Positions 29,238 through 60,936 of a DNA stretch of 64,000 nt are shown piece by piece; position 1 is the first letter of the stretch; every line of letters begins with the position of its first letter. Source of the DNA: Actinomucor elegans (lineage: Eukaryota > Mucoromycota > Mucoromycetes > Mucorales > Mucoraceae). The position numbers were made by a program, and so were the translations under genes. The DNA lies in assembly GCA_026027325.1 (NCBI GenBank), contig JAMSLZ010000007.1, positions 2,232,001 through 2,296,000 on the forward strand, written 5' to 3'. The notes under the pieces are model-generated. The model was not told where the DNA came from. It was given only the letters and a program-made list of their open reading frames with translations, and made no database searches.

Positions 29238-29320
29238 TGAAAAGAGTGGGATTTGAACCCACGCCTCCGAAGAGATCACGACCTTAACGTGACGCCTTAG
29301 ACCAACTCGGCCATCTTTCC
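29238..29320 (-). tRNA. tRNA-Leu (AAG), copy 1
   Basis: 83 nt, no intron, no encoded CCA. Acceptor GGAAAGA pairs with TCTTTTC (one G-T), discriminator A, T-arm GTGGGTTCAAATCCCAC. The anticodon stem TCACG/CGTGA holds loop TTAAGGT, hence anticodon AAG. A long variable arm (TCTCTTCGGAGG) is typical of tRNA-Leu. The sequence is identical by eye to copies at 42983 and 58894. Confidence 0.95.
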
Positions 29321-29329
29321 ATATATTTT

Positions 29330-29653
29330 TGTCTTTTGATACTTTAAATAGATCGGACGATTAGTAAACTAGATCACGTGACGAGCTGAGATTAGTATTA
29401 TCCAATAAGAGAAGAGTATAACGATGTAGTTTAGAATAATGATATTTTTTATTAGTTGTTTTCTTTTTAAATTAATACACAATATATAAATATATATTAT
29501 TTTTAATTCTATCTGGAAGGTGCTAGAAGTTATGATTGCCAAGTATGGTATAGTTTATGTCGTTTGGTTCTAGAAGGTGCCAAAGGGCTAAAGCGACGCT
29601 TAGTTCGAGGCATTGTTCGGGCCAAGGGAATTGCTCTCGAACTTTCGCTGACA
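29330..29653 (-). mobile_element. Solo LTR, 9 bp upstream of tRNA-Leu copy 1
   Basis: 324 bp with termini TGTC...GACA. It is absent at this position from copy B of the duplication. The insertion point is at the junction GACA/AAAATATATGG next to the tRNA, exactly as for the full Ty3-type element at 58884. Flanks are A/T runs, so a target duplication of 4-5 bp cannot be delimited. Confidence 0.75.
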
Positions 29654-30533
29654 TTTTTTGCATGTTGCATTTGATTATTATCGCTTTTTCATTCACAATT
29701 TCTTCGAAATGCCAAGTAACAAGTATAGTCAAGATTTTGATACATATTGAAGAAAATTACAAGGAAGTGCTCCATTTTTGTTTGAAGTCTCTAGCATATC
29801 TCTAGCCCGAGATTTTTGCATTTTAGTTTTCAGCCAATGAAGGACGTTCGCTATCTCCGCTCTCAGCCAATGAAATTGCGTTCGCTCCTTTGGCTGTAAA
29901 CTCAAGATCTCTCTGGAATAAGCAAGGTTTCAAGTTACTATCTCTCTTGGCCTGGTCTCAAACCTTTGTATTTTTCTGACACATTTTCCTTCTTATATAT
30001 ATTTTCTTATTATATTTGTTATTCCCTTTACTTTTTAGTATTATATTCCCTTCATTCAGTTTTCTTTTGTACATTTCACTCATTTCACTCATTTCATTCA
30101 CATTGTGAATCTTTATTTCCTTTTTTTCTTTTATTCGATGTCCCTTTTCCATTTTTCCCGTCTTTTCCTTTTTCCCCTTTTGTATATATTATCGTAGATC
30201 CATTCAATGTCTCGGTCCCTCGAATTTGACATTTGATCTAGCGTTACATTTATATTCTTATTGTTCTCGAGTGATCGCAGATCAAATGCATTGGCTCTGG
30301 ATAGTTACTCGGTGCTCTGTTGCAGAAGATGAATGTTTTACGCTGGTTATGTTTCTGATGCTTCAGTATTCACATAATCTAATGGTCTTTAGATTGGTGA
30401 TTGTATATGTTGTGATTAGAAGCCAGTTATTGAAGTTGCTGATGGTTTATCCGGTTGTACTTGTAGAATGTTAAGTTATGTAGTAGAAGTAGAAAGTGGA
30501 TTGATGTCTATATAAGATAGATCTGTGGTGAAA

Positions 30534-42940: not shown

Positions 42941-42980
42941 CTTGTGATTACATAAGCAATGTTTTTAAGACAACGAAAAA

Positions 42981-44015
42981 AGTGAAAAGAGTGGGATTTG
43001 AACCCACGCCTCCGAAGAGATCACGACCTTAACGTGACGCCTTAGACCAACTCGGCCATCTTTCCATATATTTTTGTTGCATGTTGCATTTGGTTATTAC
43101 CGCTTTTTCATTCACAATTTCGAAATGCCAAGTAACAAGTATAGTCAAGAATTTGATACATATTGAAGAAAATTACAAGGAATTGCTCCATTTTTGTTTG
43201 AAGTCTCTAGCATATCTCTAGCTCGAGATTTTTGCATTTTAGTTTTCAGCCAATGAAGGACGTTCGTTATCTCCGCTCTCAGCCAATGAAATTGCGTTCG
43301 CTCCTTTGGCTGTATACTCAAGATCTCTCTGGAATAAGCAAGGTTTCAAGTTACTATCTCTCTTGGCCTGGTCTCAAACCTTTGTATTTTTCTGACACAT
43401 TTTCCCTTTTATATATATTTTCTTATTATATTTGTTATTCCCTTTACTTTTAGTATTATATTCCCTTCATTCAGTTTTTCTTTTGTACATTTCACTCATT
43501 TCACTCATTTCATTCACATTGTGAATCTTTATTTTCCCTTTTCTTTTATTCGATGTCCTTTTTGCCATTTTTCCCGTCTTTTCCTTTTTCCCCTTTTGTA
43601 TATATTATCGTAGATCCATTCAATGTCTCGGTCCCTCGAATTTGACATTTGATCTAGTGTTACACCTAGATTCTTATTGTTCTCGAGTGATCGCAGATCA
43701 AATGCATTGACTCTGGATAGTTACTCGGTGCTCTGCTGCAGAAGATGAATGTTTTACGCTGGTTATGTTTCTGATGCTTCAGTATTCACAATCTAATGGT
43801 CTTTAGATTGGTGATTGTATATGTTGTGATTAGAAGCCAGTTATTGAAGTTGCTGATGGTTTATCCGGTTGTACTTGTAGAATGTTAAGTTATGTAGTAG
43901 AAGTAGAAGGCAGATTGATGTCTATATAAGATAGATCAATCGTGCCTGTCAATAAACGATAATTCAATTTTTGGGTCTTTCTTCCCTTACTTTATCACTT
44001 TTTCTTTTACTTGCT
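42981..44015. repeat. Segmental duplication, copy B
   Basis: 1035 bp matching 29236-30894 without its two LTR inserts, so it preserves both empty sites. A third fragment of the same repeat (about 47 bp, GTTGCATGTTGCATTTGG...) recurs at 44174-44220, right against the CACTA element's left end. Confidence 0.85.
42983..43065 (-). tRNA. tRNA-Leu (AAG), copy 2
   Basis: Same 83-nt sequence as copy 1, anticodon AAG, long variable arm. Its upstream flank CAAAAATATATGG is uninterrupted: the empty target site for the Ty3-type LTRs found at copies 1 and 3. Confidence 0.95.
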
Positions 44016-44220
44016 TTATTGTCTTTTAAAGCGAACACACCTAAAGCCCTTTCTGGATCTGTTCGATATATATAATAATAGTCTTTACAGTCTTCTATTA
44101 CGCAATTATATATATATTGTTTACTCTCTCTATTCAAGGTAAACATAAAAGAACATAGCCACAATATCATTTTTGTTGCATGTTGCATTTGGTTATTACC
44201 GCTTTTTCATTCACAATTTC
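44016..44220. other. Spacer before the CACTA element
   Basis: AT-rich, no gene. The last 47 bp repeat the start of the duplicated segment (43075-43121). Confidence 0.5.
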
Positions 44221-44234
44221 CACTGCAAATAATT
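44221..44234. repeat. Left terminal inverted repeat of CACTA element
   Basis: CACTGCAAATAATT, the exact inverse of 52978-52991; starts with CACTG as expected for the superfamily. Confidence 0.85.
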
Positions 44235-44260
44235 GATCACGAACATCATCACGAATTTGG

Positions 44261-44460
44261 CCCGAGTTTTATGGTGTTCGGGGTAATGGTCGTGATCACG
44301 AATATAGGGTAAATAGCTGGACGGAGTTCGGGGTGGCCCGATGTTTGCATAGAACATCGGGGACAATCTCTCTACGCTTTTTTAGCAGGCAATTATGCCC
44401 TAAGCTTGCACGAACTCGGTAGGTTCTTATTACACTGTTAGCAGGCAATTGCTCCCCGAG
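44261..44460. repeat. Left subterminal repeats of CACTA element
   Basis: Repeated CCCGAG / TTCGGGG-type motifs at about 44261, 44277, 44326, 44355, 44412 and 44452 in both orientations, plus two copies of AGCAGGCAATT (about 44384 and 44439). Such clusters bind the transposase or its partner in known CACTA elements; binding here is inferred. Confidence 0.6.
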
Positions 44461-44820
44461 TTTCAGCATATAAATTGGCATTCTATCCAATAGTTTCTTA
44501 GAATTTAGACGCTTTACACGCTTAATTATTGGTCTAAACTGATGGTATGTACTGCTTTCAATTGGTTTATATTATATCTTTTTTATTGTTATGTTTATAC
44601 TTCATTGGCCCATATATCATTATAAATAAGTTTTGTAATTTTTCAATTGGTTTTTATTTTAATCAAATTGAATGTTCATTTGCTCGATTCAAATCAAATA
44701 GAACTATAATTATCGCTATTATAAGCGCAGAACTATAGCAATATAGACTCGTATATATAGCAAAATTTGATACTACACTATTTGCTAGCGTTTCCAGATA
44801 TCAAGCTTCAGTATACTCAC

Positions 44821-45440
44821 CTTGAGATCGAGGGAAAAGAGAGAGCAGCAGCCAGCCAAGTCATTTTTACATATTCTAGTTAATAAACAAACGTTAGTAA
44901 TAAGCATTGAACACAAATATTCAATCTAATTACCTTAATAAATGCGATTTGAGACTAATCGTCAGCCATGATCGAATAAGTACGCGAATTAAAACTAATG
45001 AAAGAATGGAATTAATAAAGAGTTGGGAAGATTGTTCAGTTTTAGTTTATAACTTACATTGATTAGAGGGAAAAGCTAATAGTATTCAGCCTAAAAGTTG
45101 TATGTTAGATAATGTCAAAAAAAAAAAAAAGGATCTGTTAAGCATACCTTGAAATTACGACACCAAATAGACATGACTAGTCCAATACAAGGTCGAAACT
45201 AAGAACACATTGAATGGAAGAATGCTAGAAGATAGTCAGGAATACATAATTTCAACTTCAAAGTAGTAAGTTAATTTACCTTGCGCAGTAGTAAATGTGT
45301 TCGTTATTCTGCTTCTAATGGAAAAATGTTAGTGTTAATTCATTTAAATCGTAGAGTACAATACCATGTTTAGCTTTGCTATCTATAAATGTATTGTTAC
45401 AGTAGTAGCCTTTGACATTCATCATTAAGATATCTAAGTT
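44821..45440 (-). ncRNA. Candidate spliced noncoding transcript inside the CACTA element
   Basis: A regular series of exon-like blocks on the minus strand: about 45434-45365, 45314-45280, 45224-45148, 45090-45058, 44994-44934 and 44875-44821. Each ends at AAG/GTAAAT, AAG/GTATGC, GTAAGT, AAG/GTAATT or AAG/GTGAGT, and each next block begins after CTAG, TTAG or ATTAG. Introns are 50-63 bp, the normal size in this genome, one with a CACTAAC branch site. No frame stays open: the 77-nt block has stops in all three. Either a spliced RNA or a decayed second transposon gene. Edges of the first block are approximate. Confidence 0.45.
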
Positions 45441-45821
45441 AAAAAAAACCAGTTAGAAAAAAAGGGTTGTTTTTATGCAGCAAGAATAGTTTAGAATCAC
45501 CAGATATATGAGTCTTGAAAAGGTCAACAGGGTTTTTGAACAAATGCATTGGCATATACTAGGATAGAACAATTATCGTCCAGAAGATTAAAGGTTGAAG
45601 TGAAAGAATACGCAGCAGAAGAAGATAGAAAAGAAGCTAAAAAAATTTTTTTTTTATTACTACGCATACTTATTACCTTCGCGTTTACTACGCACATTTA
45701 TTATGTCCGCAATACCATTAAACCAATGAAAGGAAGCTGCCAAATAACTATTTAATGCTGTAAGCCGTAGCAACTTCCTTAACCCATCTTTATTACAAAC
45801 CTTTTATTTGAAAAACAAAAA

Positions 45822-46999
45822 ATGTCCAACAATAAACGGTATCCCCAATGTCCTGAGCGTTGCTTCTTCTACTCGTAGAACTATATCTCCTAGATATAGA
45901 AACAGAAATTCATCTATTGAGGATGAATTGATAGTTCTTCAGGAACGACTTGCTCAAGTCGAAAAAAATGGTCAACGCACTGAAGAACTATTGAAGAAAC
46001 AAATCGAGCTTAATCAAGCATACGAAGAGAAGCTTACTATTCTTCAAGCCAATTACTGCAGCACCAACAAGAGTAATAAGAAAAGTAGTCGAAGACCATC
46101 CTTCCATGGCTGCCAGAAAGATCTAAATGCTCTGACGGTAAATCACTATAATATGTTAATAAATGCATCACCATACAAATGTATTAACGTTTGTTTCACA
46201 ATACTGTATACATAGTCGCGCCTTCGAACAATTGAAACCTCTATAATCAATGACAGAAAGTTGAATTGGAATGTAAACGGCTCGTTAAAGGGTGATGAAA
46301 CGAATCATCGTCTTTTGATTGCCATGGAGAACAAAGCAATGGATGATCTGTTGATCAACAAAGCAGTTGTGGGCTGCAATTGGGATCTTCATCAAAAGAA
46401 GCAATTTATCGAGGATTATTATAGAAAGAGACTGGAGTTTGCCAAGAAGAAGGCAAATAATGAAAAAGCTGGCCCAGAAGTAAAAGATGCAAAGAAAAAG
46501 GCAAATGCGTACAAGTCTAGAAAAGATAGAGTAAGCTTAATTGATTGATATCATTTGAAATCAGACTTAACCATTTAATACTAATAGCTAAAAAGAAATC
46601 GTACTACTGCCTTTAACATGCATCAAAATCATTTTGGGCTGAATGGCTTTAATATTAACGACTGCCAGATCTTGCTTCAAGCTGCCTGTATGTCTGATGA
46701 AGAAGATAATGATGGTGATCGAAAGACCATCAGACGCATTCGTCCTTGTTGGAGATCACAAAAGGTAAATATGCGTAAATTATAAACTATCTGATAGATA
46801 CTTATCTTGTATAATATATGTCTAGGCTGACGAGTTCTATGATCTTTGCGACCGTCTGTTTGCCTCAAATCGTCAATCAGAGACGGAGAGTAAGCCTCGT
46901 CTCCCTATTCGCAGCACGGAAGATTCATTAAACCAAAAAATCTTCAAAAAGCTTCCAACATGGGCTGTTGATCCAAGCTATAAAAATAATACCAATTAG
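45822..46999 (+). CDS. Unknown protein carried by the CACTA element
   Basis: Exons 45822-45838 (17 nt), 45879-46137, 46216-46530, 46588-46764 and 46826-46999; 313 aa. The start is uncertain: the first ATG needs a 40-bp first intron (GTATCC...GTAG), otherwise the frame has no ATG. Residues about 20-60 predict a coiled coil (ELIVLQERLAQVEKNGQRTEELLKKQIEL), followed by Lys-rich stretches. The C-terminal third contains MSDEEDNDGDRKTIRRIRPCWRSQKADEFYDLCDRLF and ends with a WAVDPSY motif. The MSDEE...RP-W-RS...P-W-V pattern recalls unnamed proteins repeated in mushroom genomes, from memory only. Convergent with the transposase and inside the inverted repeats, so it may be the element's accessory gene. 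Confidence 0.65.
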
Positions 47000-47168
47000 A
47001 TATAAATAAAAAATGCCCATAATACTTATCATCTCACCTTGTGTTTCACTAAAAATGTATCCATAAATCCATCATCAAATAATCATTGCATTATCTAATT
47101 TATTAAAAAACCTTTCGAGGCAGAAAAAGAACGATGTTGATATTAGTCAAATATTCCATCTTCATGTG

Positions 47169-47453
47169 TGTGGTGAAATCCACATATAACATTCTACATT
47201 ATATTAAAAAGACGGGATTCATTTAATAACTATCCATCAAAAGAGGGAGTTTTGAATCACCGCTGAAAATACAATTAATGAAGAATGAACATAGATTAAA
47301 AAGACCTTTGATTGTTACTAAGAGACCATTTCTTTGGAAGTATAAATACAAGAGATACAAGCTAGATAGAAAAACTTAACTCACTTTGAATCAATAAAAC
47401 CCCATAAAACGGTTCCAACTGATTCACTCGCTTTTTATTCAATTTTTACCGCA
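47169..47453 (+). mobile_element. Solo LTR, family 1, in the transposase 3' end
   Basis: 285 bp with exact 5-bp target duplication ATGTG (47164-47168 and 47454-47458). It interrupts the C-terminal transposase frame. Confidence 0.93.
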
Positions 47454-48187
47454 ATGTGAATACCCGAGTAAAGTTTGTGTACTGGCAATATACAGTCTTG
47501 AGACATGTCTTCAAACTTATTTTGCCAACAGGATACGTTATTACCATTGTATGATGACAAGTCTTCTGTACCTGGATTTGGATACTTGAACCACCGTACA
47601 AAAGCAAACATATGGTCTAACAATCCATTTTCTTCGCCTTCCTCAACACTTTCGACTTCTTGAGTATGTTGAAAAAAGAATTGAATCTGACCAGGTCGAA
47701 GCTCCAACACGCCATTGTCATTGTAATGGTAGGCACAGAAATATGTATTTTTGTTTCTATTTGCTTCTGCAGAGTAATATTTGTATCCAAGAATTTGTAT
47801 ACGATCAAACCGTTTGATGGTATTTTTGACCGTTATTTCGTTATATTCTATCATGTCGTCGTCTCGTTTCAAAAGAAAGCCATAAACATCACAGTAGTAT
47901 TCAACAAGACAACTATATTCATCCAGTGTCTGTCCTTGCTCGATTATCTTGTTTAAATTAGTGGAATTGCTGCATGACCAACGAATGGAGTTCAAGCTGA
48001 ACTGCGGTAAAGGCTCCAAGCCACTGCAGTACTCGTTATCATTAGTTGGTGCTTCAGAATACTTCATACACTGAAATAATTCTTCTGATGGTTCAATCGA
48101 AACAGATTCAAGAGAATCAACTGCATTGCTGAGATTTAAGAAAAGCCTTTTGATTTCTTGGTAAGAGTTGTTGTTAACGTTATTCAT
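47435..48187 (-). pseudogene. C-terminal part of the Tnp2-type transposase, cut by an LTR
   Basis: A 250-aa frame from an ATG at 48187. It is rich in N and E and resembles the C-terminal region of fungal Tnp2 proteins: QIQFFFQHT, FAFVRWFKYPNPGTED, and LPVHKLYSGIHI near the end. The native frame runs to the family-1 LTR edge at 47454; the last six codons and the stop are LTR sequence. Beyond the LTR the original frame resumes for about 15 codons and contains LPRK before a stop, so only the tail was lost. It may once have been joined to the upstream transposase exon by an intron ending after the T9A10 palindrome at 48201-48219, but no donor in the right phase was found. Confidence 0.6.
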
Positions 48188-48200
48188 AATGTTATATAGC

Positions 48201-48219
48201 TTTTTTTTTAAAAAAAAAA
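48201..48219. repeat. T9A10 palindrome between transposase segments
   Basis: Same structure as the intronic palindromes of the chitin synthase gene. On the minus strand it ends in AAG just before the C-terminal transposase frame, like an intron end. Confidence 0.65.
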
Positions 48220-48309
48220 GAGAGAAGGAGAGAGAAAGAAAGAAAATGCTTTTGGCAGAATATATATCAAATTAGTACAAGAATACACTTGTGACTTAAA
48301 TTATTTATT

Positions 48310-51015
48310 CTATATATACTTTTCAAAAAGGCCCGCATAATCTTCAGCATGAATTATTCGAAGCATTTGAACCATAAAGGTTTTTTCAAATCCCTTTTTA
48401 TGATTTGTTCGAACCATTTTAACAAACATATTATAACGTTCGAAATTAAACGCCCAAAAACAGGAAATAGGACCGTACATTCGTATACACTCTGCAAGAT
48501 GGAGATGAAAGTGCATATTAGAGGTGACATTGCGCTTTCCATACAAATGCTCAAAGCCAATGCAGAACTCTCGCAACTTTGCATGGCAAGTGTCAATGTC
48601 AGTCAAACGAATAATGTTCCTTTCCAAGATTTGCAAAGCATCAACAAAAAGCATAAAATTGTTGAATCGTTCAGTATCAAGTACTTGTCTTAAGATCAGT
48701 GGAGACATTGTTGAGCACCAGATTTTCCATTCGGCTGCTTTCAAATACGAAAAACCTGGTCCAATGTTAATTTTTCTGACAATAGATCGACCATCGCTTT
48801 CATCCTTGAACGAAAAATTGGAGAAGAAATCTTCAAATCTTGCAAGACTTTGCCTATCAATCAATGGCTCTGCTGTTGATCGTTTTACCCAGCTGTTTCT
48901 TGTATCTCTGGATAACCACAAGTTCATCATATGTTTAGCGGTACCGAGATAGAGGTTGTGCATTGGTTCAATAACAGTGAATGCGGGCGCGTCAAAGTAA
49001 GGCAATTTATGTAAAGAACTATAGCGTGTACCATTTGCGTCTTCTAACGGCTTTACATTTTGTCCAGAATCTTTCTTGATTTTCCACGCTTCTGCTTCTG
49101 ATTTATTCTCTTCTTTAGTGCGAAGGATCCAATCATCACTATTCCAACCAGACCAGTCTCTTCTACCTTCATTAGCAAGGATGTTAAACCTGGATTTGCA
49201 ACGATGGCAGCCACAGATAGCATGGAATGAGACAAATCCAGAAGTTTTTTTTGCAGCAGGTAAATCACAACATACCATGGAAAGTGCAGCCTTGACCTTT
49301 TGCGCTTGGATCTGTCCATCTGGCATCATTGCATTCATTGTAACACCGTTCATCAGCAGCAAGAGCTCATCAACTAGAGGATCTAAATAATGGTTCATGT
49401 CTGAGGTAGAAGGCTCTTTAGGGCCTGGAATAATGCCTACGAGTACAAGATTCCTTTTGAGATCGCGACCATCGGCTTTGGGAAGATTTTGAATGGTCAT
49501 ATAGATGCTACCACAAGAACCACCAGAAGATCCATCAACATTGTACCAATCGACGTTTAAAGTAAGCATCAGGTTAAATATAGATTGAGAAGTGAATGCA
49601 GGAAGATTAGGCCCTAACGAAAAATTCTTGAATACAGATCCATCATAAATATCATATAGATAGCCATCCAAGGAAGGACGTGAACACCATTTCGAGATTT
49701 CTCTGACAAAATTTGGACGCATAAACATTTTTTTGAGAGTGGAAATAATAGAATTGTATGGATACACCTTTCTTGGGACAAGATGGTTGGCTAGGGACGA
49801 CTTTTCATGCAGACTTTCATTGCAAGCAATAACTGTTCTATCTGACAAAACTTTTGTGATGTGATTGCAGTATTTTTTGGAGGATGTAGGTAAATACATT
49901 TGATGGCATGTAGGACATACAGTATAATAGGTAATGCCATTGCAGAATACTTTTTGAGCTTGATCTCTTCTTGTTAGTGTTATGATTTTTTTAGGAAAAC
50001 GAAATGGATCATTGGCAAGGTTAAGAGCAGCATTCAAAAAAGCCATAACAATTTCAGCACATTCATCAGTTAGATGGTTATTGATTCGCAACATCACAAC
50101 CATAAGGTATAGGACAAAGGAGAGAGGAGAAGCCGGAAATATGTTATTAGCTATCATTGACAAAAATAAATGTGAGTATATGATATCAGTATTTAGTATG
50201 ATAGCTACTAGACTTACAAGCATTATAAAGCTCTTTTTCACGCAACTCTTGCTGTTCATTATCATAATCAAAGGAACTGGTATTGATTTCAGAATTATAT
50301 CCATCATCATACATATCAGTACCATCAGTATCATTATCAGCTACAACTATATATAAAGCAGAATTAGCACATATGTCACTAATTGATTTTAAATAGTTAC
50401 CTTGTTATATCCGGTGCTAAAGACGAAGGATATAATTTAAAATACAATAATAAAAGAATAGACAGTCAATGGAATCAGCTATCCTGATAGTAAAAGTTAT
50501 TCTAATCTTTTATTCACAATTCAAAATCAAGTCTTCTTTATATACATTTCATCAGAGCTTAATAATGTAGCATTCAATATCTATCAGCACGCATGGCCGT
50601 ACAACGGAGTCCAATCCCAGCAGCCACTAATAAGCCTTTCAACCACGCATTGTTGTAATTGTATAACCCACGCGTTATTCGATGTTCAGGTCTTATCTTG
50701 AGATACACTCGATACTACTCGATAGTATGATGCCGCGTGTTTCTTGTAAGGATTATTGGCTAATAGTTCTAAGGATGACACATCGCTTGTATTTATGCAG
50801 GCCTCGTTAATCTGATTGGGTTATCAGATAGAGTCCGTGTATGACATAAATGAACAGTTGATTCCTTACTATTATGTCGATGCAAAATAGTAGGTGGAAT
50901 ACAACATACCTTCTTCTTGTTGGATAGATGAACTACTCTGTATATCATCAAAATGATCATCAGGCATGGTGGCTTGTTTACCTTCTAATGTATTTGATAA
51001 AGAATTAGATGTCAT
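48310..51015 (-). CDS. Tnp2-type (CACTA) transposase
   Basis: Exons 51015-50910, 50346-50218 and 50150-48310; 691 aa. The acidic N-terminus (DDHFDDIQSSSS, DNDTDGTDMYDDGY) fits this family. Zinc-binding motifs CPTCHQMY...CNH and CGCHRCKSRF are seen. The core matches Tnp2 transposases: DWYNVDGSSGGSCGSIYMTIQNLP, then NLVLVGIIPGPKEPS and MNHYLDPLVDELLLL, later PMHNLYLGTAKH and FWAFNFERYN. It mobilises the CACTA element. Intron 1 (50909-50347) is swollen by a solo LTR placed exactly at the splice donor. Start is uncertain: a Zn-finger-like peptide is encoded just upstream (51200-51012) in another frame. Confidence 0.75.
50403..50906 (-). mobile_element. Solo LTR, family 5, in transposase intron 1
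   Basis: 504 bp. On the minus strand TGTTGTATTCC ... GGATATAACA, with exact target duplication TACCT (50398-50402 and 50907-50911). The sister copy at 59520-60338 has its own target duplication. Confidence 0.93.
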
Positions 51016-51200
51016 ATTATGGAAAGTATTTTAATATCAACAAACTTGCCATTAGTTTTTTTCCAAACTTTATAATTCAAGCCATTATATGTATGTAATC
51101 TCTTGTGGAGGGTAATAGATGACATGGAGATGAAGCGAGCTTGATAGCCTAAATACCTACATTTATCACAGTGGCAATAATAGGAAGTGGTTGATTTCAT
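51012..51200 (-). pseudogene. Zn-finger-like N-terminal segment of the transposase
   Basis: 62-codon frame from an ATG at 51200 containing CHCDKCRYLGYQARFISMSS and HKRLHTYN, like the start of Tnp2 and CxC-type transposon proteins. It ends in a stop overlapping the next ATG (ATGA). No in-phase splice to the main frame was found, so it may be an upstream exon broken by a small indel. Confidence 0.45.
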
Positions 51201-51250
51201 CTTTTTTTAACTTGAGGCAGAGTTTAATAATAAAAGTAATCAATTAATAT

Positions 51251-51535
51251 TGCGGTAAAAATTGAATAAAAAGCGAGTGAATCAGTTAGAACCGTTTTAT
51301 GGGGTTTTATTGATTCAAAGTGAGTTAAGTTTTTCTATCTAGCTTGTATCTCTTGTATTTATACTTCCAAAGAAATGGTCTCTTAGTAACAATCAAAGGT
51401 CTTTTTAATCTATGTTCATTCTTCATTAATTGTATTTTCAGCGGTGATTCAAAACTCCCTCTTTTGATGGATAGTTATTAAATGAATCCCGTCTTTTTAA
51501 TATAATGCAGAATGTTATATGTGGATTTCACCACA
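51251..51535 (-). mobile_element. Solo LTR, family 1, upstream of the transposase
   Basis: 285 bp, exact target duplication AATAT (51246-51250 and 51536-51540). Same orientation as the transposase and 50 bp before its first ATG, with a TATAAATA inside. Confidence 0.93.
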
Positions 51536-51540
51536 AATAT

Positions 51541-52458
51541 TGAAGAATATCGCATTTAAATATTTTTCTACACTGATCTGCTGCGTATTTATAGACTTCG
51601 CTTCAATAATCCGCAGCTCTTTTAAAAGCAATTGGAAACGATATGATTCGTTCAAACCGCTGGCCTTTTTTTTATTTATTTTTAATTCGGAATTTGGTGT
51701 AGTTTTTTATCTTTGTCATCTATTCTTTTAGTTACAATAAACTGCTTTAAAACTCGACATGAATGCAACATTTAAATAGAATTTGGCAACTAAGACTCAA
51801 AATTAGTCCAACAACGCTTGAAAAATCCGCAGCCATGTTTTATATAAAGACGATTTCGGTAAAATCTCGCACTTAATTACTACATCAGCCTCAGAATGAA
51901 CTCTTAATGAAAAAGAATTTCAAAATTGTAGCCCCAATGCTTTTGTCTGGTCAAATGCCTTGTACATAAAAGTTGAATTGTAACTAACATGGCAAAAGTA
52001 CATGCTTTTTAAAAAAAACTCAGTGATGACTATCAACCATTTGACATTCATTGAGATGGCATTTATTTTGCACGTTAATTAACCAATTCAAACGCATTTT
52101 AAGCAAGACATGTATTCTTCAGTGCTAATAATACTTGAAGAATTCTCGATACTTGCTTGACAATGTAATATTTTACAGTAAAACAGTATTATAATAAGGG
52201 AATGCAATTGCAACAGCTGTATCATAGTGTCTCTTTTTTAAAAGCTATATATGAATAGGCTCTTTTGCATATATCCATGTTCTTAAAGTCCTTGAGGTAA
52301 TTTATGTTAATTTTTATACCTTGTTTTTTTTCTCAAATATTGTATAGCTTGTAGTAATTGTGGCATCTCTATTAAAACTCATTACATTTAATCAGTCATT
52401 AGGCTTTTTTCTTTTTGTTTCTCTTTGTTTCTCTTTTTTTTTTTCCTCTTTTTTTTCA

Positions 52459-52501
<43 letters not shown>

Positions 52502-52926
52502 AAAGCTACATTTTTATACTTATACTACACCAACTATAATTCACCAACAAGAATAACTAGTTTATTCACTGTTACAATTATCTATATATACATATATATA
52601 CTATTATAACTTATTATATTTTAATAATTAGTAGTTTGAATAAGCATTAATTATTTAAAAAACGCGCTTTTTTTTTATGTTTTAAAAAACTTGCAATTCT
52701 TTATGAAAATCAGTCTGATCGGAAAGCGAAAGGTTCACGTAAAAAATTATGCCTGAAATTGATACTTATATAAAAAATGTCAAATATGGCATAAAAATAT
52801 TGTTTTTTTTATATAAAAACAATTGAATACAACCAAAGACAATATTTATTTAAAAAAACAGAATGTTTATAATCAAAGTAACGAATTATATGAAAAAAAC
52901 AGTTTTCTCAGTTTTGGCAGAAGCAT
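51541..52926. other. Right noncoding arm of the CACTA element
   Basis: No supported gene. T-rich stretches with T-runs at about 52433-52444 and 52462-52498; otherwise AT-rich. Confidence 0.5.
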
Positions 52927-52960
52927 GTTCGGGGATACTCTCTACTGGCTCAACCCCGAA
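52927..52960. repeat. Right subterminal repeats of CACTA element
   Basis: GTTCGGGG at 52927-52934 and CCCCGAAT at about 52954 in opposite orientation, matching the motif cluster near the left end. Confidence 0.6.
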
Positions 52961-52977
52961 TTTCATGCTGGAATTCA

Positions 52978-52991
52978 AATTATTTGCAGTG
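52978..52991. repeat. Right terminal inverted repeat of CACTA element
   Basis: AATTATTTGCAGTG, the exact inverse of 44221-44234. Next comes a 50-bp spacer and then the Ty3-type LTR. Confidence 0.85.
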
Positions 52992-53041
52992 CCACATCGC
53001 TTTTACTCTCGCCAGAAAACGCAAATACAATTTTCCAAAAA

Positions 53042-53471
53042 TGTCGAGCCCATAGACTCCACAATGGAAGAAGTACCAATAGAAGTCGAGCTGAGATTAA
53101 AGAAGGAAGCAAAACGAAAAAGGAAGTTCAAGCCCAATACCAATACAACTCGCAAGAAGACTAAGGTACACTTGACTTACCTTATATGAACTCAAGCCCG
53201 CTGCCAAGATGGTTGTTAGAAAATCATACTACTATAGAAATATTCCTTTATAAATATCCAAAGCGCATATCCATATATAATTATCCATCCGTCTTAGAAT
53301 AATATAAATACCATTATAATTTCATTGAATAAAGCTTATCTTCAGTTTGTATCTTAAAAATACTTATATTGTATCTTTTATAATACTTCTTTAATATACT
53401 TCTTGATCACGTGTAGAATAGTCACAGAGAACTGATTCTACAGACATCCATTGCAAGATACAGAACTGACA
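53042..53471 (+). repeat. 5' LTR
   Basis: 430 bp, TGTC ... GACA. Reads the same as 58455-58884. AATAAAG and TATAAATA-like motifs in its second half. Confidence 0.93.
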
Positions 53472-53473
53472 TT

Positions 53474-53489
53474 TGGTAGCACCAGATTC
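53474..53489 (+). promoter_or_regulatory. Primer binding site
   Basis: TGGTAGCACCAGATTC starts two bases after the 5' LTR. Its complement ends GGTGCTACCA, which would give an acceptor starting AGC with an A1-U72 pair, as in initiator tRNA-Met. The tRNA identity is inferred. Confidence 0.65.
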
Positions 53490-53506
53490 TAACAAGAAGA
53501 ATTATT

Positions 53507-54397
53507 ATGGCTGGTCAAGGAGAACCGAGCATGACTGAAAAAACAAGCGAACAACCAAATGATATGGCCGTATTGATCAAACATTTGGCTAATTTAGTAA
53601 CGGATAAGCAGCAAGTAAGAATCAAGGAACCTAACACTTATGATGGTACAAGAGATGCTCTACTTATCGATGGATGGATACGTTCGGTGGAAAGGTACGC
53701 CACTTTTCATAATTGGGATCAAACAAGAACTTGTCTTTTGGGATCGACTCTATTAAGAGATAGAGCTGATGCCTGGTATCGCACTTTGGAAAATTCAGAT
53801 GATCAACCTACTACATGGCTTGAACTGAAGCGATTGCTTATTGATTTCTTTCGTCCTGACAATTCAGTAAGAATTGCGAGAGAGAAATTGGCAGTATTAA
53901 AACAAACAGGAAATTTGGTTGATTACATTAACCAATTTATGGATATCAAGCTAGGTATCCCAACAATGACTGACGAAGAAGCATGTGACAAGTTTACTCG
54001 AGGTTTAGCCACGAAACAGATGCGTGCTCATGTACGACAATATGAAGCAGAAACCTTGAAAGCAGCAGTACGTGCAGCATTATCATTTGATAGTGCTCAA
54101 CAAGAAGAAAACTATTCTCCAGTTCAAAATCACGGACAACAAGTTGATGATCCAATGGAGATAGATGCTATTGATCAACGTCGCGGAAATGGGTATTCTG
54201 GGGGAAATCGAAGATTTGGTGGTATGAGCAACACACGATCAAATAATGGTGGATCAAGATCTGGATATAATTCAGCTACATGTTATTACTGTCATAAATC
54301 GGGCCACTTGAAAAGAAACTGCAAAACTCGATTGGCGGATATAAGAAGATTAGATGAACAGCACTCACAAAGGAGAAAACGCCAGGATTTTCAATAA
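53507..54397 (+). CDS. Gag of the Ty3-type element
   Basis: 296 aa, ATG 35 bp after the 5' LTR. The capsid-like region contains WIRSVERYATFH, RDRADAWYRTLE and VDYINQFMDIKLGI, typical of gypsy Gag (retrotrans_gag). The C-terminal nucleocapsid has one zinc knuckle, CYYCHKSGHLKRNC (CX2CX4HX4C), near residue 264, followed by a basic tail. Its last 40 nt overlap the pol frame, which lies in the -1 frame. Confidence 0.92.
   Translation: MAGQGEPSMTEKTSEQPNDMAVLIKHLANLVTDKQQVRIKEPNTYDGTRDALLIDGWIRSVERYATFHNWDQTRTCLLGSTLLRDRADAWYRTLENSDDQPTTWLELKRLLIDFFRPDNSVRIAREKLAVLKQTGNLVDYINQFMDIKLGIPTMTDEEACDKFTRGLATKQMRAHVRQYEAETLKAAVRAALSFDSAQQEENYSPVQNHGQQVDDPMEIDAIDQRRGNGYSGGNRRFGGMSNTRSNNGGSRSGYNSATCYYCHKSGHLKRNCKTRLADIRRLDEQHSQRRKRQDFQ
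54358..54397 (+). promoter_or_regulatory. Gag-pol overlap with required -1 frameshift
   Basis: The pol frame is closed by TGA at 54355-54357 and open from 54358; gag stops at 54397. A -1 shift (or +2) must happen in these 40 nt to make Gag-Pol. It contains AGGAGAAAACG and GATTTTC runs, but no perfect heptamer in the gag frame. Confidence 0.6.
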
Positions 54398-57300
54398 ACG
54401 TAGTTGATGACCAGGAAGCTCAACTACGTGAAGATAACACTATCATTTCAAACATTCCTGATAATAAAAATCTAATTGATTTCGATCCTTATTCTACTGT
54501 TCATCTAGACAAAACCATACATCCTGTGTTAGCTCCTATCAACTGTGTGCAAGAAGTTGATCAAGATGCAAGAAAAACTACTTTCCGACCCCAAGATGTA
54601 GTAACAGAAATACTACCTATCGTGTATCCAAAATCATTGCCCGAAGACTTACTATACCTGCAAGAACTAAACGCTATCTCAACCAATCTACCTCTATATT
54701 CAGTAACTTATAAGGATAAAGCATTACAAACCTTAATCGACTCGGGAGCCAGCGAAAACTATGTATCATCACACATAGTAAAATACTTGGATCAGGAACG
54801 ATTTATACCAGTACAAAACCGACAAGTAGAAACAGCTGGAGGTCAGATCTCTGAAATCAAATACAAAGTGGAAATGGATATCAATCTGAATGGCTTCAAG
54901 GATAAAGTTACTGCGTATGTATTTGACACAAAATTTGACCTTATATTAGGACGCGCGTGGTTAAAGCAAACACAACCCTTACCTGACTGGACTACTGATA
55001 CTTGGTACTTGAAGAACGGCAGTATCAAATTGAAACCGTGCAGAAACAAAAGGCAATCGGTAACACCTAACTTAAACTATCTCATTTCACATAAGCAAGC
55101 CGATAGATACATGAAAAAAGGTGCCGACAGCTTTCTCTTCTACATCAAGTCAAAAGACAATGAACTAGATTTTCACAAGAATCCAAAATTGCAGACTACG
55201 GCTTACTGGGATGGATTGGTTAAAGAATTTGGTGATGTATTCATGGATAAACTACCTGGCCTCCCTCCTGACCGAGGAATCCATCATGCCATTGACGTTG
55301 GTGATGCACAACCCATTTCTAGACCGCCTTATAAGATGAGCCCCATTGAATTGGATGAACTGCAAAAACAATTGAAAGAACTGTTACAGTTGGGATTAAT
55401 TAGACCTAGTACATCTCCATGGGGTGCTCCTGTTCTATTCGTAAGAAAGAAACCCGATCCAGGTTCAAACAAACCAGGTGCTCTGCGAATGTGTATTGAC
55501 TATAGAATACTAAATAAGCATACAATCAAAAACAGCTCCAGTTTACCAAGGATCGATGAATGTTTAGAACGTTTAAGTGGTGCTAGGTATTTTACAAGTT
55601 TAGATTTGCGAAGTGGTTATCATCAAATCCGTATTGCTCCAGAAGACGTTGAAAAAACTGCATTTAACACAAGATATGGACAATATAGCTGGTTAGTCCT
55701 ACCGATGGGTCTGTGCAACAGCCCTCCAGTATTCCAATCTTTAATGAACAAGGTGCTTGCTGACTGTATCGATAAAACTGCTTTAGTATACCTGGACGAC
55801 ATCCTAATCTATAGTAAAACAATGGAAGAACATAAACAACATGTACGACATGTGTTGAAATTACTACAGAAAGAGAAACTAGTCGCGAACCTAAAGAAAT
55901 GTGAATTTGGCAAGAAAGAACTAACCTTTGTTGGTTTTCATATATCTAGTGCAGGTATTGCACCCAGTCCTGAAAAGGTGAAAGTACTCAAGGAATGGCC
56001 TCGTATGAAAAATGTTCAAGAAGTACGTCAGTTCGTGGGTTTTGCTCAATTCTATAAACGATTCATCAAGAACTTTGCATCAATTGCTGCTCCACTTACC
56101 GATTTGACAAGAGGAACGGGTATCAAGAAACGCCCTATAGTATGGACAGATGAATGTCAACGTAGCTTTGATACCTTGAAACAGTTGCTCTCATCGAGTC
56201 CAGTACTGCAAGTCGTAGATATGGATAAACCATTCAGGATAGAGGTGGATGCTTCTGATAGAGGGTGTGGTGCTGTATTATTACAACCTGGTGAAGACTA
56301 TAATGCCCAATGGCATCCTATTTGTTTCGAATCCAAGAAGTTTTCTGAGGCTGAAAGGAAATACCCTGCACAAGAAAGGGAATTACTTGGTATATTGCAT
56401 TCTTTAAGAACTTGGCGATGCTTTATAGATGGATGCCCAAAAGGTTATAAGGTATATTCAGATCATCTTCCATTACAGTATTTTAGGACCAAGGACAAAC
56501 CCCCTAGTCGTTTGGTACGCTGGATATCTGAATTAGAACTATATTCACCTGAAATAATATACAAGCCGGGCAAGGAAAACGAAATACCTGATATATTATC
56601 AAGAATGAACTTTGATTCTCCATCGGAACAACCTGCTAGTGAATCCATGGAACCTGAATATTTGTATGCTGCATGGAACAAACTACCACCTACACTTCGA
56701 AGTGATTGGCCCTTATTATTAATTCCAAACAACCGAACAAAGGTAAAATCGACTGAAGTAAAAAGCATACTGGACAGAGAAGAGAAAAATTTCAATGTTA
56801 CTGCTAATCGAGTATGGCGAAAAGTAATAGTGGATGAAGCCAATAAACAACAAATCAAGAACGTACCATTTGTTCCTTTTGCCGAAAGAGCCGACACGGT
56901 AGCAAAATATCACGAAGCATATGGACATGCTGGATACAAGACTATGTTGAAATTACTGATACCAAGAGCATGGTGGCCTTCGCTTAGGTTAGACATAAAA
57001 CAATGGCTTAGTACATGCCCTTCGTGCCAAGTCAATAGTCGTCGTACTAGAGCCCATCAAGATGAAATGCATCCACTTAAAGTCCCTACTGCGTTTGATC
57101 GTTGGCATCTTGATTTTCTGGATCTTCCTACAACGATAAAAAACAATCGATGGTTACTGGTGGGAGTGGATTATGCTACTAACTGGCCAGTAGCGCGTGC
57201 TGTTCCTGTTGCATCTAAGGAAGCAGTTGCTGATTTTATATATGAAGAGATTGTGATGAATTTTGGTGTTCCTTCGGAAATTGTAACGGATCGTGGTGCC

Positions 57301-58602
57301 AACTTTACGAGTGAACTGGTGAAGGAGTATTTAAAACGTGTAGGCACTAACCATAAGCTAACCTCTGCATACCATCCACGTACTAATGCCAAAGCTGAGC
57401 GTTTTAACGGTGTGATCAAGCAAATGCTACGAAAATACACGAATGGTGCTCTACATCGTTGGGATGACTTTGTCAAGGCTGCTCTTTTTGCTTGTCGAGT
57501 ACGAATCCATTCTACTACGGGATTCAGCCCGTTCTACTTAACATATGGTCGAGAACCGCGCATTCCAGGTGATACTTTACAACCGTATATCGATGCTAAT
57601 ACGTTTAAAGACCCTCGAACAGTAGCCGATTTCACTGCAAGAGAACTTTCTCAACTTGGACAACATAGAGCAGCAGCTGAATTCAAGTTAAAAGCTATGG
57701 CGGAAAAAGACAAACAGAAATGGGATGCGACTGTCAAGAAGCTCAGTTTTGAAACAGGTGACATGGTAATGCTAACGCATGAAGGTCGTTTTGGACTTGA
57801 GCCAAGGTTCAAAGGACCTTTTATTGTAGTAGAAGCTTTTCACAACTATGGTACATACAAGTTGCAAACATTAGCTGGTGAACCGCTAAAATCGCTGGTT
57901 CATGTTGATCGTCTCAAGCCTGCACTCGGTGACAAACCTACTGAACCTTGGTATGATCCTGTTAAGGCACGTCGCGATTACAACAACATCATGAAAGACC
58001 TACCTACGGCTACGCTTGGAGTTGCACATAGTAATAGCAATGCAGTCAAAACTAATGAGATGGAATTAGAACAAATTCAAGTACCCGAAGACTTTGTAGA
58101 TCCCATTGCAAAGAATGTTACGAGTAATGAGGTGGAAATGGAACAAGACGCGTTAAAAAATAAAATGCAAGAACACAGTACTAACTCAGTTAGCCCTAGT
58201 ATCGCAAGCCATCCATCTAACTCAGCATCTGGAGTTTCAAATATGTCAAGAAATGATCCAGTGAAATCCGTTTTATCCCAGCCAATTACATCTGACACTT
58301 ATCTACCTGAAAAAGCTCAACAATCACCAAGTCAACTAACAAGCAGCGATAACAGAGTTTTCGCCGATAGGCTTTCCGGACCGGATTCACCTAGTATTTC
58401 AAAAGTCAGCTCCATTAGTGTTCCGGGTCGAACACAAAGCTTGGAAGGGGGTAATGTCGAGCCCATAGACTCCACAATGGAAGAAGTACCAATAGAAGTC
58501 GAGCTGAGATTAAAGAAGGAAGCAAAACGAAAAAGGAAGTTCAAGCCCAATACCAATACAACTCGCAAGAAGACTAAGGTACACTTGACTTACCTTATAT
58601 GA
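54358..58602 (+). CDS. Pol of the Ty3-type element (PR-RT-RH-IN)
   Basis: Open from 54358; the first ATG lies well inside, so it is probably made as Gag-Pol. Order: aspartic protease (LIDSGAS, about 54733); reverse transcriptase with MCIDYRILNK, FTSLDLRSGYHQIRI, and YLDD at 55789-55800; RNase H (EVDASDRGCGAVL; the HLPLQYF region); integrase with an HHCC finger (HEAYGHAGY ... CPSCQ), catalytic D at LDFLDL, D at TDRGANFTS, E at NAKAERFNG; then a GPY/F module (GPFIVVE ... YKL). No chromodomain is seen. The last 49 codons and the stop lie inside the 3' LTR and encode a Lys/Arg-rich tail. Confidence 0.93.
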   Translation, partial: TALTKEKTPGFSINVVDDQEAQLREDNTIISNIPDNKNLIDFDPYSTVHLDKTIHPVLAPINCVQEVDQDARKTTFRPQDVVTEILPIVYPKSLPEDLLYLQELNAISTNLPLYSVTYKDKALQTLIDSGASENYVSSHIVKYLDQERFIPVQNRQVETAGGQISEIKYKVEMDINLNGFKDKVTAYVFDTKFDLILGRAWLKQTQPLPDWTTDTWYLKNGSIKLKPCRNKRQSVTPNLNYLISHKQADRYMKKGADSFLFYIKSKDNELDFHKNPKLQTTAYWDGLVKEFGDVFMDKLPGLPPDRGIHHAIDVGDAQPISRPPYKMSPIELDELQKQLKELLQLGLIRPSTSPWGAPVLFVRKKPDPGSNKPGALRMCIDYRILNKHTIKNSSSLPRIDECLERLSGARYFTSLDLRSGYHQIRIAPEDVEKTAFNTRYGQYSWLVLPMGLCNSPPVFQSLMNKVLADCIDKTALVYLDDILIYSKTMEEHKQHVRHVLKLLQKEKLVANLKKCEFGKKELTFVGFHISSAGIAPSPEKVKVLKEWPRMKNVQEVRQFVGFAQFYKRFIKNFASIAAPLTDLTRGTGIKKRPIVWTDECQRSFDTLKQLLSSSPVLQVVDMDKPFRIEVDASDRGCGAVLLQPGEDYNAQWHPICFESKKFSEAERKYPAQERELLGILHSLRTWRCFIDGCPKGYKVYSDHLPLQYFRTKDKPPSRLVRWISELELYSPEIIYKPGKENEIPDILSRMNFDSPSEQPASESMEPEYLYAAWNKLPPTLRSDWPLLLIPNNRTKVKSTEVKSILDREEKNFNVTANRVWRKVIVDEANKQQIKNVPFVPFAERADTVAKYHEAYGHAGYKTMLKLLIPRAWWPSLRLDIKQWLSTCPSCQVNSRRTRAHQDEMHPLKVPTAFDRWHLDFLDLPTTIKNNRWLLVGVDYATNWPVARAVPVASKEAVADFIYEEIVMNFGVPSEIVTDRGANFTSELVKEYLKRVGTNHKLTSAYHPRTNAKAERFNGVIKQMLRKYTNGALHRWDDFVKAALFACRVRIHSTTGFSPFYLTYGREPRIPGDTLQPYIDANTFKDPRTVADFTARELSQLGQHRAAAEFKLKAMAEKDKQKWDATVKKLSFETGDMVMLTHEGRFGLEPRFKGPFIVVEAFHNYGTYKLQTLAGEPLKSLVHVDRLKPALGDKPTEPWYDPVKARRDYNNIMKDLPTATLGVAHSNSNAVKTNEMELEQIQVPEDFVDPIAKNVTSNEVEMEQDALKNKMQEHSTNSVSPSIASHPSNSASGVSNMSRNDPVKSVLSQPITSDTYLPEKAQQSPSQLTSSDNRVFADRLSGPDSPSISKVSSISVPGRTQSLEGGNVEPIDSTMEEVPIEVELRLKKEAKRKRKFKPNTNTTRKKTKVHLTYLI
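58443..58451 (+). promoter_or_regulatory. Polypurine tract
   Basis: GGAAGGGGG, three bases before the 3' LTR; plus-strand priming site. It lies within the pol frame. Confidence 0.75.
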
Positions 58603-58884
58603 ACTCAAGCCCGCTGCCAAGATGGTTGTTAGAAAATCATACTACTATAGAAATATTCCTTTATAAATATCCAAAGCGCATATCCATATATAATTATCCA
58701 TCCGTCTTAGAATAATATAAATACCATTATAATTTCATTGAATAAAGCTTATCTTCAGTTTGTATCTTAAAAATACTTATATTGTATCTTTTATAATACT
58801 TCTTTAATATACTTCTTGATCACGTGTAGAATAGTCACAGAGAACTGATTCTACAGACATCCATTGCAAGATACAGAACTGACA
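58455..58884 (+). repeat. 3' LTR
   Basis: 430 bp, reads the same as the 5' LTR. Its first 148 bp encode the end of Pol. Confidence 0.93.
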
Positions 58885-58893
58885 AAAATATAT

Positions 58894-58976
58894 GGAAAGA
58901 TGGCCGAGTTGGTCTAAGGCGTCACGTTAAGGTCGTGATCTCTTCGGAGGCGTGGGTTCAAATCCCACTCTTTTCA
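58894..58976 (+). tRNA. tRNA-Leu (AAG), copy 3
   Basis: 83 nt, same sequence as copies 1 and 2, in the opposite orientation. The Ty3-type element ends 9 bp upstream of it. Confidence 0.95.
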
Positions 58977-59051: not shown

Positions 59052-59205
59052 TGTCGTGTGCCGAGATATATGTTTTATAGTCGATTCCAATAAACGTGTA
59101 CAATAGATTATATATGAGATAAAAGATACTCTTTATTATTCTAAGATGCAATTGATATTTATACTAATTAAAAAGGTTACACATCAAGACCGTGTGTACC
59201 TGACA
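59052..59205 (-). mobile_element. Short LTR, family 2 (154 bp)
   Basis: On the minus strand TGTCAGGTACACACGG ... CACACGACA, with TATAAATA and AATAAAG. It is the unsplit counterpart of 42509-42940. Flanks do not give a target duplication. Confidence 0.65.
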
Positions 59206-59519: not shown

Positions 59520-60338
59520 TGTTGTATTCCACCTACTATTTTGCATCGACATAATAGTAAGGAATCAACTGTTCATTTATGTCATACACGGACTCTATCT
59601 GATAACCCAATCAGATTAACGAGGCCTGCATAAATACAAGCGATGTGTTGTGTTTGCACAGTGAAATAATAAAGAAGACTAAAAAGAGTACTTTTTGAGA
59701 CTGTGCTTTATTAACAAAGATGAATATAAAGATGAAGATCCTATAACTATGTCTAAACTAAACCTATTTATACTAATCGTCTATCTAAGTGTGGTGAAGA
59801 GGATTTAAGAAGATGTTATGTTATAGGTCTATGTTCTAGATATATATCCATCTGAGACATGAATCTTAAACATATCAACTCATAAGTGCTTCCGTAAAGA
59901 TGAGATTGATAATGAATAAGTTATTATTCATACAATAGTCTCTATTCTATAACACGATGTGTCATCCTTAGAACTATTAGCCAATAATCCTTACAAGAAA
60001 CACGCGGCATCATACTATCGAGTAGTATCGAGTGTATCTCAAGATAAGACCTGAATATCGAATAACGCGTGGGTTATACAATTACAACAATGCGTGGTTG
60101 AAAGGCTTATTAGTGGCTGCTGGGATTGGACTCCGTTGTACGGCCATGCGTGCTGATAGATATTGAATGTTGTACACTATTAAGCTCTGATGAAATGTAT
60201 ATAAAGAAGACTTGATTTTGAACTGTGAATAAACATTAGAATAACTTTTACTATCAGGATAGCTGATTCCATTTACTGTCTATTCTTTTATTATTGTATT
60301 TTAAATTACATCCTTCGTCTTTAGCACCGGATATAACA
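59520..60338 (+). mobile_element. Solo LTR, family 5, with nested family-4 LTR
   Basis: TGTTGTATTCC ... GGATATAACA with exact target duplication GCTAT (59515-59519 and 60339-60343). Without its 314-bp insert it is 505 bp, like the copy at 50403-50906. Confidence 0.92.
59646..59954 (+). mobile_element. Solo LTR, family 4, nested in family 5
   Basis: 309 bp, TGTTGTGTTTGC ... CTATAACA with exact target duplication CGATG (59641-59645 and 59955-59959). The uninterrupted family-5 copy at 50403 shows the empty site. Confidence 0.93.
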
Positions 60339-60518: not shown

Positions 60519-60882
60519 TGTTGTAAACATGACTTGTTCAGTGTCCGTCACCAATCAGGTCAATGTTCGACAATGCTTATACTCAGCTTGTGCTTTGACA
60601 GCTTTGTAACGTCGGTTAAGAGATATATATGGAAATCAATGCTTAGTGCAACTAACCTTCATAAACTATCTATCACCGAATATAAAGTCGTACTAGAATG
60701 GATTACTATAAATCCTTGTTAACTCCATGAGCGCAGTCTTTGACTAACTCAATCGTCTATAATATCAAGTTAAATCCGAACTTCAATTTTGTATAAATAG
60801 CTCATCATTTTAATGCTTTAATAAATCAATTCGTTTTATCAGTCTGGTTATTTTTACAGTCTTTATTATATTCGATATAACA
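60519..60882 (+). repeat. Probable 5' LTR of the second gypsy-like element
   Basis: About 364 bp, TGTTGTAAAC ... GATATAACA, the same type of termini as LTR families 4 and 5. It contains GTATAAATAGC and AATAAA in the right order and ends 54 bp before the gag ATG. The partner 3' LTR lies outside the window, so the edges rest on terminal motifs alone. Confidence 0.5.
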
Positions 60883-60936
60883 TTTTTTTTAACCTTATCT
60901 GCTACTTTTTGGTTTATTACACACTTACTACTCAAT

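Follow-up and report, generated by a model that had tools for sequence, protein, structure and literature searches.

The targeting of Ty3-like retrotransposons to tRNA genes is established in yeasts and in Dictyostelium, as set out in the available text of two accounts (PMC5911963, PMC5006619). For yeast Ty3, the available sections of a structural study describe contacts with TBP and Brf1 made by the C-terminal barrel and the vestigial chromodomain of the integrase, which also has a long helical linker (PMC8632968). In Dictyostelium, according to the portions available, TRE5-A lands about 50 bp upstream of tRNA genes (PMC5006619, PMC5633606), and an interaction of the TRE5 ORF1 protein with TFIIIB is on record (PMC5911963, PMC5633606). 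Closer to the fungus studied here, the accessible part of a report on the Mucorales species Rhizopus oryzae/delemar describes Ty3/gypsy LTR elements that have a strong insertion-site preference and often co-localize with tRNA genes (PMC2699053), and a survey of fungal LTR elements makes no mention of tRNA in the part that was accessible (PMC3248453). In the portions of the literature compared here, Pol III-guided integration has so far been retrotransposon-based (yeast Ty1/Ty3 and Dictyostelium TREs).

Here we examined 64,000 nucleotides of Actinomucor elegans DNA (positions 2232001-2296000 of contig 25 in our numbering; hereafter the window) and searched the 36.5-Mb genome of 27 contigs to which they belong. 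Our data make it very likely that nuclear tRNA genes serve as landing pads common to Ty3/gypsy LTR elements and CACTA elements, each at a fixed offset and probably via the Pol III initiation complex.

LTR elements at the three tRNA-Leu(AAG) genes of the window

The features of the window that bear on this question are as follows.

29238..29320, minus strand: tRNA-Leu(AAG) copy 1 (Rfam)
29330..29653, minus strand: LTR-B, 324 bp, 4-bp target-site duplication TTTT, one end 9 nt from tRNA copy 1
29658..30523, plus strand: LTR-C, truncated, behind LTR-B
42983..43065, minus strand: tRNA-Leu(AAG) copy 2 (Rfam)
43075..44169, plus strand: LTR-C, younger copy, 9 nt from tRNA copy 2
44174..44220, plus strand: older LTR-C, first 47 bp, cut by the CACTA transposon
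44221..52991, no strand assigned: CACTA-type DNA transposon (group T34), 8.77 kb, termini CACTGCAAATAATT, both ends facing tRNA genes
47435..48271, minus strand: 278-aa ORF beside the transposase ORF, no Pfam match
48313..50340, minus strand: transposase ORF, 676 aa, Transposase_21, RAG1-like predicted fold
52992..53037, plus strand: LTR-G, 46-bp end, between the transposon end and element A
53042..58884, plus strand: element A, complete Ty3/gypsy element, 5,843 bp, target-site duplication AAAA
53042..53471, plus strand: 5' LTR-A
53472..53485, plus strand: candidate primer-binding site TTTGGTAGCACCAG, read from sequence
53480..54397, plus strand: gag ORF (Retrotrans_gag, Ty3_capsid)
54358..58602, plus strand: pol ORF, 1414 aa, PR-RT-RH-IN, extending into the 3' LTR
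58455..58884, plus strand: 3' LTR-A, end 9 nt from tRNA copy 3
58894..58976, plus strand: tRNA-Leu(AAG) copy 3 (Rfam)
59052..59205, plus strand: S repeat, short TGTC..GACA, LTR-like, 3' of tRNA copy 3

Rfam placed all three tRNA-Leu(AAG) genes where the original prediction had them, and its complete Ty3/gypsy element at copy 3 and its different TGTC..GACA LTR ending at 29330 beside copy 1 were both recovered. The site at copy 2, which had been read as empty, is occupied by an LTR-like repeat of about 1.1 kb (LTR-C), and none of the three tRNA-Leu(AAG) loci in the window lacks an insertion (0/3). Thus LTR-A, LTR-B and LTR-C have a common end nucleotide, 9 nt before the tRNA. The prediction had counted two independent events at one base; repeated use of that base stands, but by our reading it received six LTR copies (A and G at copy 3, B and C at copy 1, and two C copies at copy 2). 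The LTR-G remnant behind element A, the C copy behind LTR-B and the 8.77-kb CACTA transposon between tRNA copies 2 and 3 were additional to what had been described. At copy 2, the order is LTR-C, TTTT and then the first 47 bp of the older C copy. Judging from the target duplications, each new LTR would enter between the tRNA and the older elements, giving stacks ordered by age that could serve as a relative clock of insertions.

Element A has an identical LTR pair (430/430 bases) with the ends TGTC..GACA and the flanks AAAA/AAAA, and both gag and pol are open, the latter with protease, reverse transcriptase, RNase H and integrase domains. The PR-RT-RH-IN order, the gag with a Ty3-type capsid, the TG..CA LTRs and the target duplication place it in Ty3/gypsy (Metaviridae), and the ORF coordinates put its pol in the -1 (or +2) frame with respect to gag. 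The comparison with Ty3-like integrases that had been proposed as a check gave Ty3 itself as the best match of A's Pol among solved structures (7q5b, E 2.6e-110), and the nearest named relatives of the pol are from Choanephora (80%) and Mucor saturninus (78%). In a predicted model, the C-terminus of the integrase forms a barrel and a helix of 40 residues, again with 7q5b as the best PDB match; the Ty3-type chromodomain, which makes the Brf1 contact, is not visible in this model, itself of low confidence (mean pLDDT only 58). Remote pol groups with about 27% identity were also seen in the genome.

Three further features of the window were recorded. Inverted repeat arms at 50403-50906 (inside the CACTA element) and 59520-60338 (3' of tRNA copy 3) are 97-100% complementary, a separate 686-aa ORF with a Retrotrans_gag domain lies at 60814-62874, and a chitin synthase reading frame (Chitin_synth_2), a host gene, lies at 16203-17711.

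LTR ends near tRNA genes across the genome

For the genome-wide count we used 51 of the 56 nuclear tRNA loci in an incomplete Rfam set (63 of 2052 candidates scored), leaving out 5 loci lacking upstream DNA and 7 on contig C19, which looks mitochondrial. An alternative pattern search for GACA before a tRNA box returned only 7 tRNAs, since the A-box pattern was too strict. A repeat boundary was present 4-14 nt upstream of 24 of the 51 genes, leaving 27/51 without one against the comparison DNA used, and downstream of 0 of the 27 genes tested on that side, 14 of which have an upstream boundary. We do not attribute this difference to chance. The 5'/3' control is weaker than it appears, since LTR and tRNA-upstream sequences are plentiful in the comparison DNA and bias it towards the 5' side.

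Starting from the LTRs instead, we found 40 genome matches for LTR-A and 17 for LTR-B and inspected 30 A and 17 B loci. A tRNA gene (Leu, Arg, Lys, Gly, Tyr, Asn or Gln) lay 8-12 nt from the LTR end in only 9 of these 47, with both LTR orientations represented; the other loci include inner LTRs, fragments and stack members. Three partial B matches lay 37-73 nt from a tRNA, the alignment stopping before the LTR end. Two copies of A, one full-length and one solo, end 10 and 9 nt, respectively, from sequences that we take from their likeness to be 5' halves of tRNA-Ala and tRNA-Val. Putative tRNA genes broken after about 15 nt were noted at four loci beside LTR-A or T2 insertions (L136 and L015, tRNA-Ala; L019 and L123, tRNA-Val). 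Rfam returned nothing at 20 LTR loci without an adjoining tRNA, several of which are stacked or lie beside tRNA 5' halves, and only tRNA genes at 14 further LTR loci; on these 34 results, neither 5S nor U6 was seen beside these LTRs.

Other LTR families end at the same place. LTR-C has 49 genome matches, fragments counted in. On contig 14, a match to the integrase of A (35% identity) is bracketed by pairs of C copies, and we therefore assign C, as an LTR, to a distant Ty3/gypsy family; on contig 3, an integrase with 62% identity is likewise bracketed by LTR-B matches. Both B and C are thus linked to integrases related to A's. An LTR-G-like end also lies beside a tRNA-Arg gene, and families D, E, F, H and I end at the same position before Trp, Lys, Gly, Gln, Phe, Thr and other tRNA genes.

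The target duplication was 4 bp in 16/16 A and B copies, chosen for having both outer flanks, and 5 bp in 0/16. On contig 7, LTRs C, A and B stand in a row with GCTT after each, which indicates repeated use of a single 4-bp site. A history in which elements inserted at random and selection then kept just the copies close to tRNA genes would accord with the general argument that safe sites often persist in compact genomes; it leaves the 1-3 bp precision and the reuse of one 4-bp target unexplained, and we consider it scarcely credible. Targeting to the Pol III start region, as originally proposed, extends outside the window to many isotypes and LTR families, with position scored from the mature tRNA. 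LTR copies scattered without a tRNA bias had been named as the contrary outcome, and the LTR positions do not refute targeting.

CACTA transposons with ends facing tRNA genes

LTRs beside tRNA genes are often cut about 44-54 bp from their tRNA-proximal end by sequences ending in ..GCAGTG, which we identify as the ends of DNA transposons with CACTG/CACTA termini. The window element carries such terminal inverted repeats, and its 676-aa protein matches Transposase_21 (tnp2) with E 9.3e-10 (38.5 bits versus a cut-off of 28.6); both features assign it to CACTA/EnSpm. The nearest named relative of this transposase is from Rhizopus delemar (40%). Its AlphaFold2 model (mean pLDDT 83.5) gave RAG1 structures as the best matches (E 3.7e-12, TM about 0.5). 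The neighbouring 278-aa ORF is possibly a continuation of the transposase gene.

A search for transposon ends yielded 69 in total, comprising 27 of T1, 33 of T2 (one of them doubtful, with two mismatches) and 9 of T34, the group of the window element. Left and right T34 ends also occur as pairs, in the order seen in the window element, at two further places, where they are 12.3 and 22.6 kb apart, and transposase matches inside paired T2 ends are 39-41% identical in the aligned parts, with open frames up to 886 aa. T1 end pairs are 2.35-2.9 kb apart in 6/9 cases; T1 is probably a non-autonomous family, which the transposases of the T34 and T2 lineages may mobilise. Among 20 paired transposons, 7 have an exact 3-bp duplication (about 0.4 expected by chance, P about 8e-8), and the flanks of the other 13 mismatch. 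A third transposase group, 26-29% identical and with about 30 genome matches, was also observed.

Distance between CACTA ends and tRNA genes

At 23 loci a transposon end directly faces a tRNA gene, and the gap to the tRNA start (from Rfam) is 56 nt in 7 loci, 57 in 8, 58 in 1, 59 in 3, and 60, 63, 64 and 74 in 1 each. Hence 20/23 ends lie 56-60 nt upstream of the tRNA, and 12 amino-acid isotypes are represented among the 23. On the assumption of 150-500 tRNA genes, the placement of 19 of the 69 ends within a 5-bp window has P below 1e-68.

By script, the 69 ends fell into 22 that face a tRNA, 19 that face an LTR-end fragment followed by another LTR, 22 that face neither, 4 that abut another transposon and 2 without flanking sequence for comparison. 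Inspection by eye made one of the 19 doubtful (C3:252751) and revised three of those classed as neither: C25:1124629 is an LTR-end fragment before LTR-B, and C15:228357 and C21:335431 face putative tRNA 5' halves, the latter across an LTR-A stub. Since an element with two ends is expected to have one of them far away, ends facing neither are not counter-examples as such. By our reading, five ends with no partner end identified (C1:1213654, C3:252751, C12:1290222, C13:239113 and C1:2573439) face neither a tRNA nor a sure LTR stub, and these may lie away from tRNA genes.

The interrupted LTR ends differ in sequence, and it is mostly into such ends that the transposons inserted. CACTA transposons might recognise the LTR ends themselves, 46-49 nt inside the terminus, in which case the tRNA distance would merely follow from LTR placement. 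An LTR-like end does lie between transposon and tRNA in 22/23 loci, by a list of end motifs drawn up from the data, and the fragment measured from the LTR end is 46 nt long in 11/22, chiefly in A, D and E, and mostly of constant length within families; with so constant a cut position and an LTR end in 22/23 loci, the two readings are inseparable within any one LTR family. Across families, recognition of LTR ends is at odds with the cutting of about ten of them that, by our reading, have no evident common motif, and with the cutting of both ends of LTR-A, each 46 nt in. By eye, moreover, 8 LTR-A stubs were counted among the 69 ends and none with the primer-binding side following, though such recognition would allow it.

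Two loci without an intervening LTR were seen. At L136 (C15:228379), the gap between a T2 end and a putative tRNA-Ala 5' half (a broken tRNA) is 56 nt and the duplication is ATT, and a paralogue on contig 22 has the same upstream DNA without the transposon, which also argues against recognition of LTR ends; at L133 (tRNA-Gln CTG), the transposon lies at 63 nt. A stub that is not beside a tRNA gene is followed, about 4 bp further on, by another LTR, which is the arrangement to be expected had a younger LTR slipped between stub and tRNA. Given the diverse LTR ends, this stub-LTR spacing and the LTR-free L136, a distance set by the initiation complex is the most economical reading, and we regard recognition of LTR ends as unlikely.

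Possible recombination between copies

The window transposon cannot be described as one simple insertion, since its left flank is the LTR-C of tRNA copy 2 and its right flank the LTR-G of copy 3; a deletion between two direct copies would suit it better. Both ends also lie beside tRNA genes or LTR stubs in C5:323491-332108 (His and Trp), in C21:322416-335453 (Tyr, and a putative tRNA-Val 5' half across an LTR-A stub) and in C8:112220-136674 (Asp, and a stub before another LTR). Two ends that face tRNA genes or stubs are impossible from a single insertion and possible by deletion or exchange, which suggests exchange between copies; judging from these elements, tRNA genes may be places where this genome rearranges.

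Frequent recombination, to which the mismatched flanks of the 13 paired transposons and these elements point, would also be the basis for obtaining the observed positions by copying, a few composites of LTR plus transposon having spread by recombination or retrotransposition without repeated targeting. Such an origin is hard to reconcile with LTR-A, where T1, T2 and T34 occupy one and the same position and T1 and T2 do so with either end, or with the variety of junctions, among which we read at least 25 different pairings of a transposon end with the sequence it interrupts, and it seems to us quite improbable beside integration targeted repeatedly to tRNA genes.

Discussion

The placement of LTRs is precise and repeatedly used. 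As in yeast Ty3, its most likely cause would be an integrase tethered to TFIIIB. A, B, C and other Ty3/gypsy elements would insert at cuts staggered by 4 bp, some 10 nt ahead of the mature tRNA and presumably where Pol III starts. For A, B and C, we infer this tethering from position, the integrase model being of low confidence with no chromodomain visible. CACTA transposons (the T34 and T2 lineages and T1) would insert in both orientations, mostly 56-57 nt ahead of the tRNA, with a duplication of about 3 bp. If transcription starts near -10, a position of -57 from the mature tRNA would correspond to roughly -47, immediately beyond the TFIIIB footprint of yeast. The transposase may therefore dock on the same initiation complex, or on TFIIIB or its edge, and strike at the upstream edge, the exact base then being chosen by local sequence. 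Taken together, it is probable that the CACTA lineages and T1 measure distance when they integrate, reading the Pol III initiation complex and striking 56-57 bp upstream of tRNA genes of any kind; Ty3-type elements would use another face of this complex, and a third class may act 3' of the gene. If true, a DNA transposon with a RAG1-like predicted fold at a fixed tRNA distance would mean that a transposase can gain the same kind of tether.

The S repeat was found within 300 nt 3' of 16/30 tRNA genes (nearest match 25-101 nt) and on the 5' side of 0/30, and it occurs again in the window at about 42883-42942. It is possibly a third, 3'-targeted class.

Compared with known systems, element A and the Ty3 group share a Ty3/gypsy pol, and Ty3 is the closest solved relative of A. 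They differ in the target duplication, which is 5 bp in Ty3 and 4 bp here, in the pol frame (+1 versus -1 or +2), in the use of one site by several families here, and perhaps in the chromodomain, present in Ty3 and not detected in the low-confidence model of A. Like the LTR elements described here, which lie a few bp before the tRNA as scored from its mature end, Ty3 of S. cerevisiae, Tj1, Tyl3/Tyl6/Ylt1 and Beta/Tca8 insert a few bp before the Pol III start or the tRNA coding sequence, as far as the available text describes them (PMC5911963). The Rhizopus account, in its available part, gives neither a base-level offset nor targeting by a DNA transposon (PMC2699053). In Dictyostelium, as here, several unrelated classes (DGLT-A, Skipper-2, TRE5-A and TRE3) occupy distinct offsets 5' or 3' of tRNA genes according to the sections available (PMC5006619, PMC5633606); those elements are all retrotransposons, whereas the -57 class here is a cut-and-paste DNA transposon. 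Dada elements are likewise DNA transposons tied to tRNA genes but, in the available description, insert inside the RNA gene by its sequence (PMC8869645), whereas the 23 loci here lie 56-74 nt upstream, mostly at 56-57 nt, at many isotypes. With CACTA/EnSpm the elements share the CACTG/CACTA termini and Transposase_21; the 3-bp duplication of that superfamily is exact in only part of the copies (7/20 pairs). No report of fixed-distance tRNA-gene targeting by the CACTA superfamily was found in the portions of the open-access literature available, which does not prove its absence. On present sequence evidence, the LTR part would thus be a further case of an already known kind of targeting, and the CACTA part appears to be what is new.
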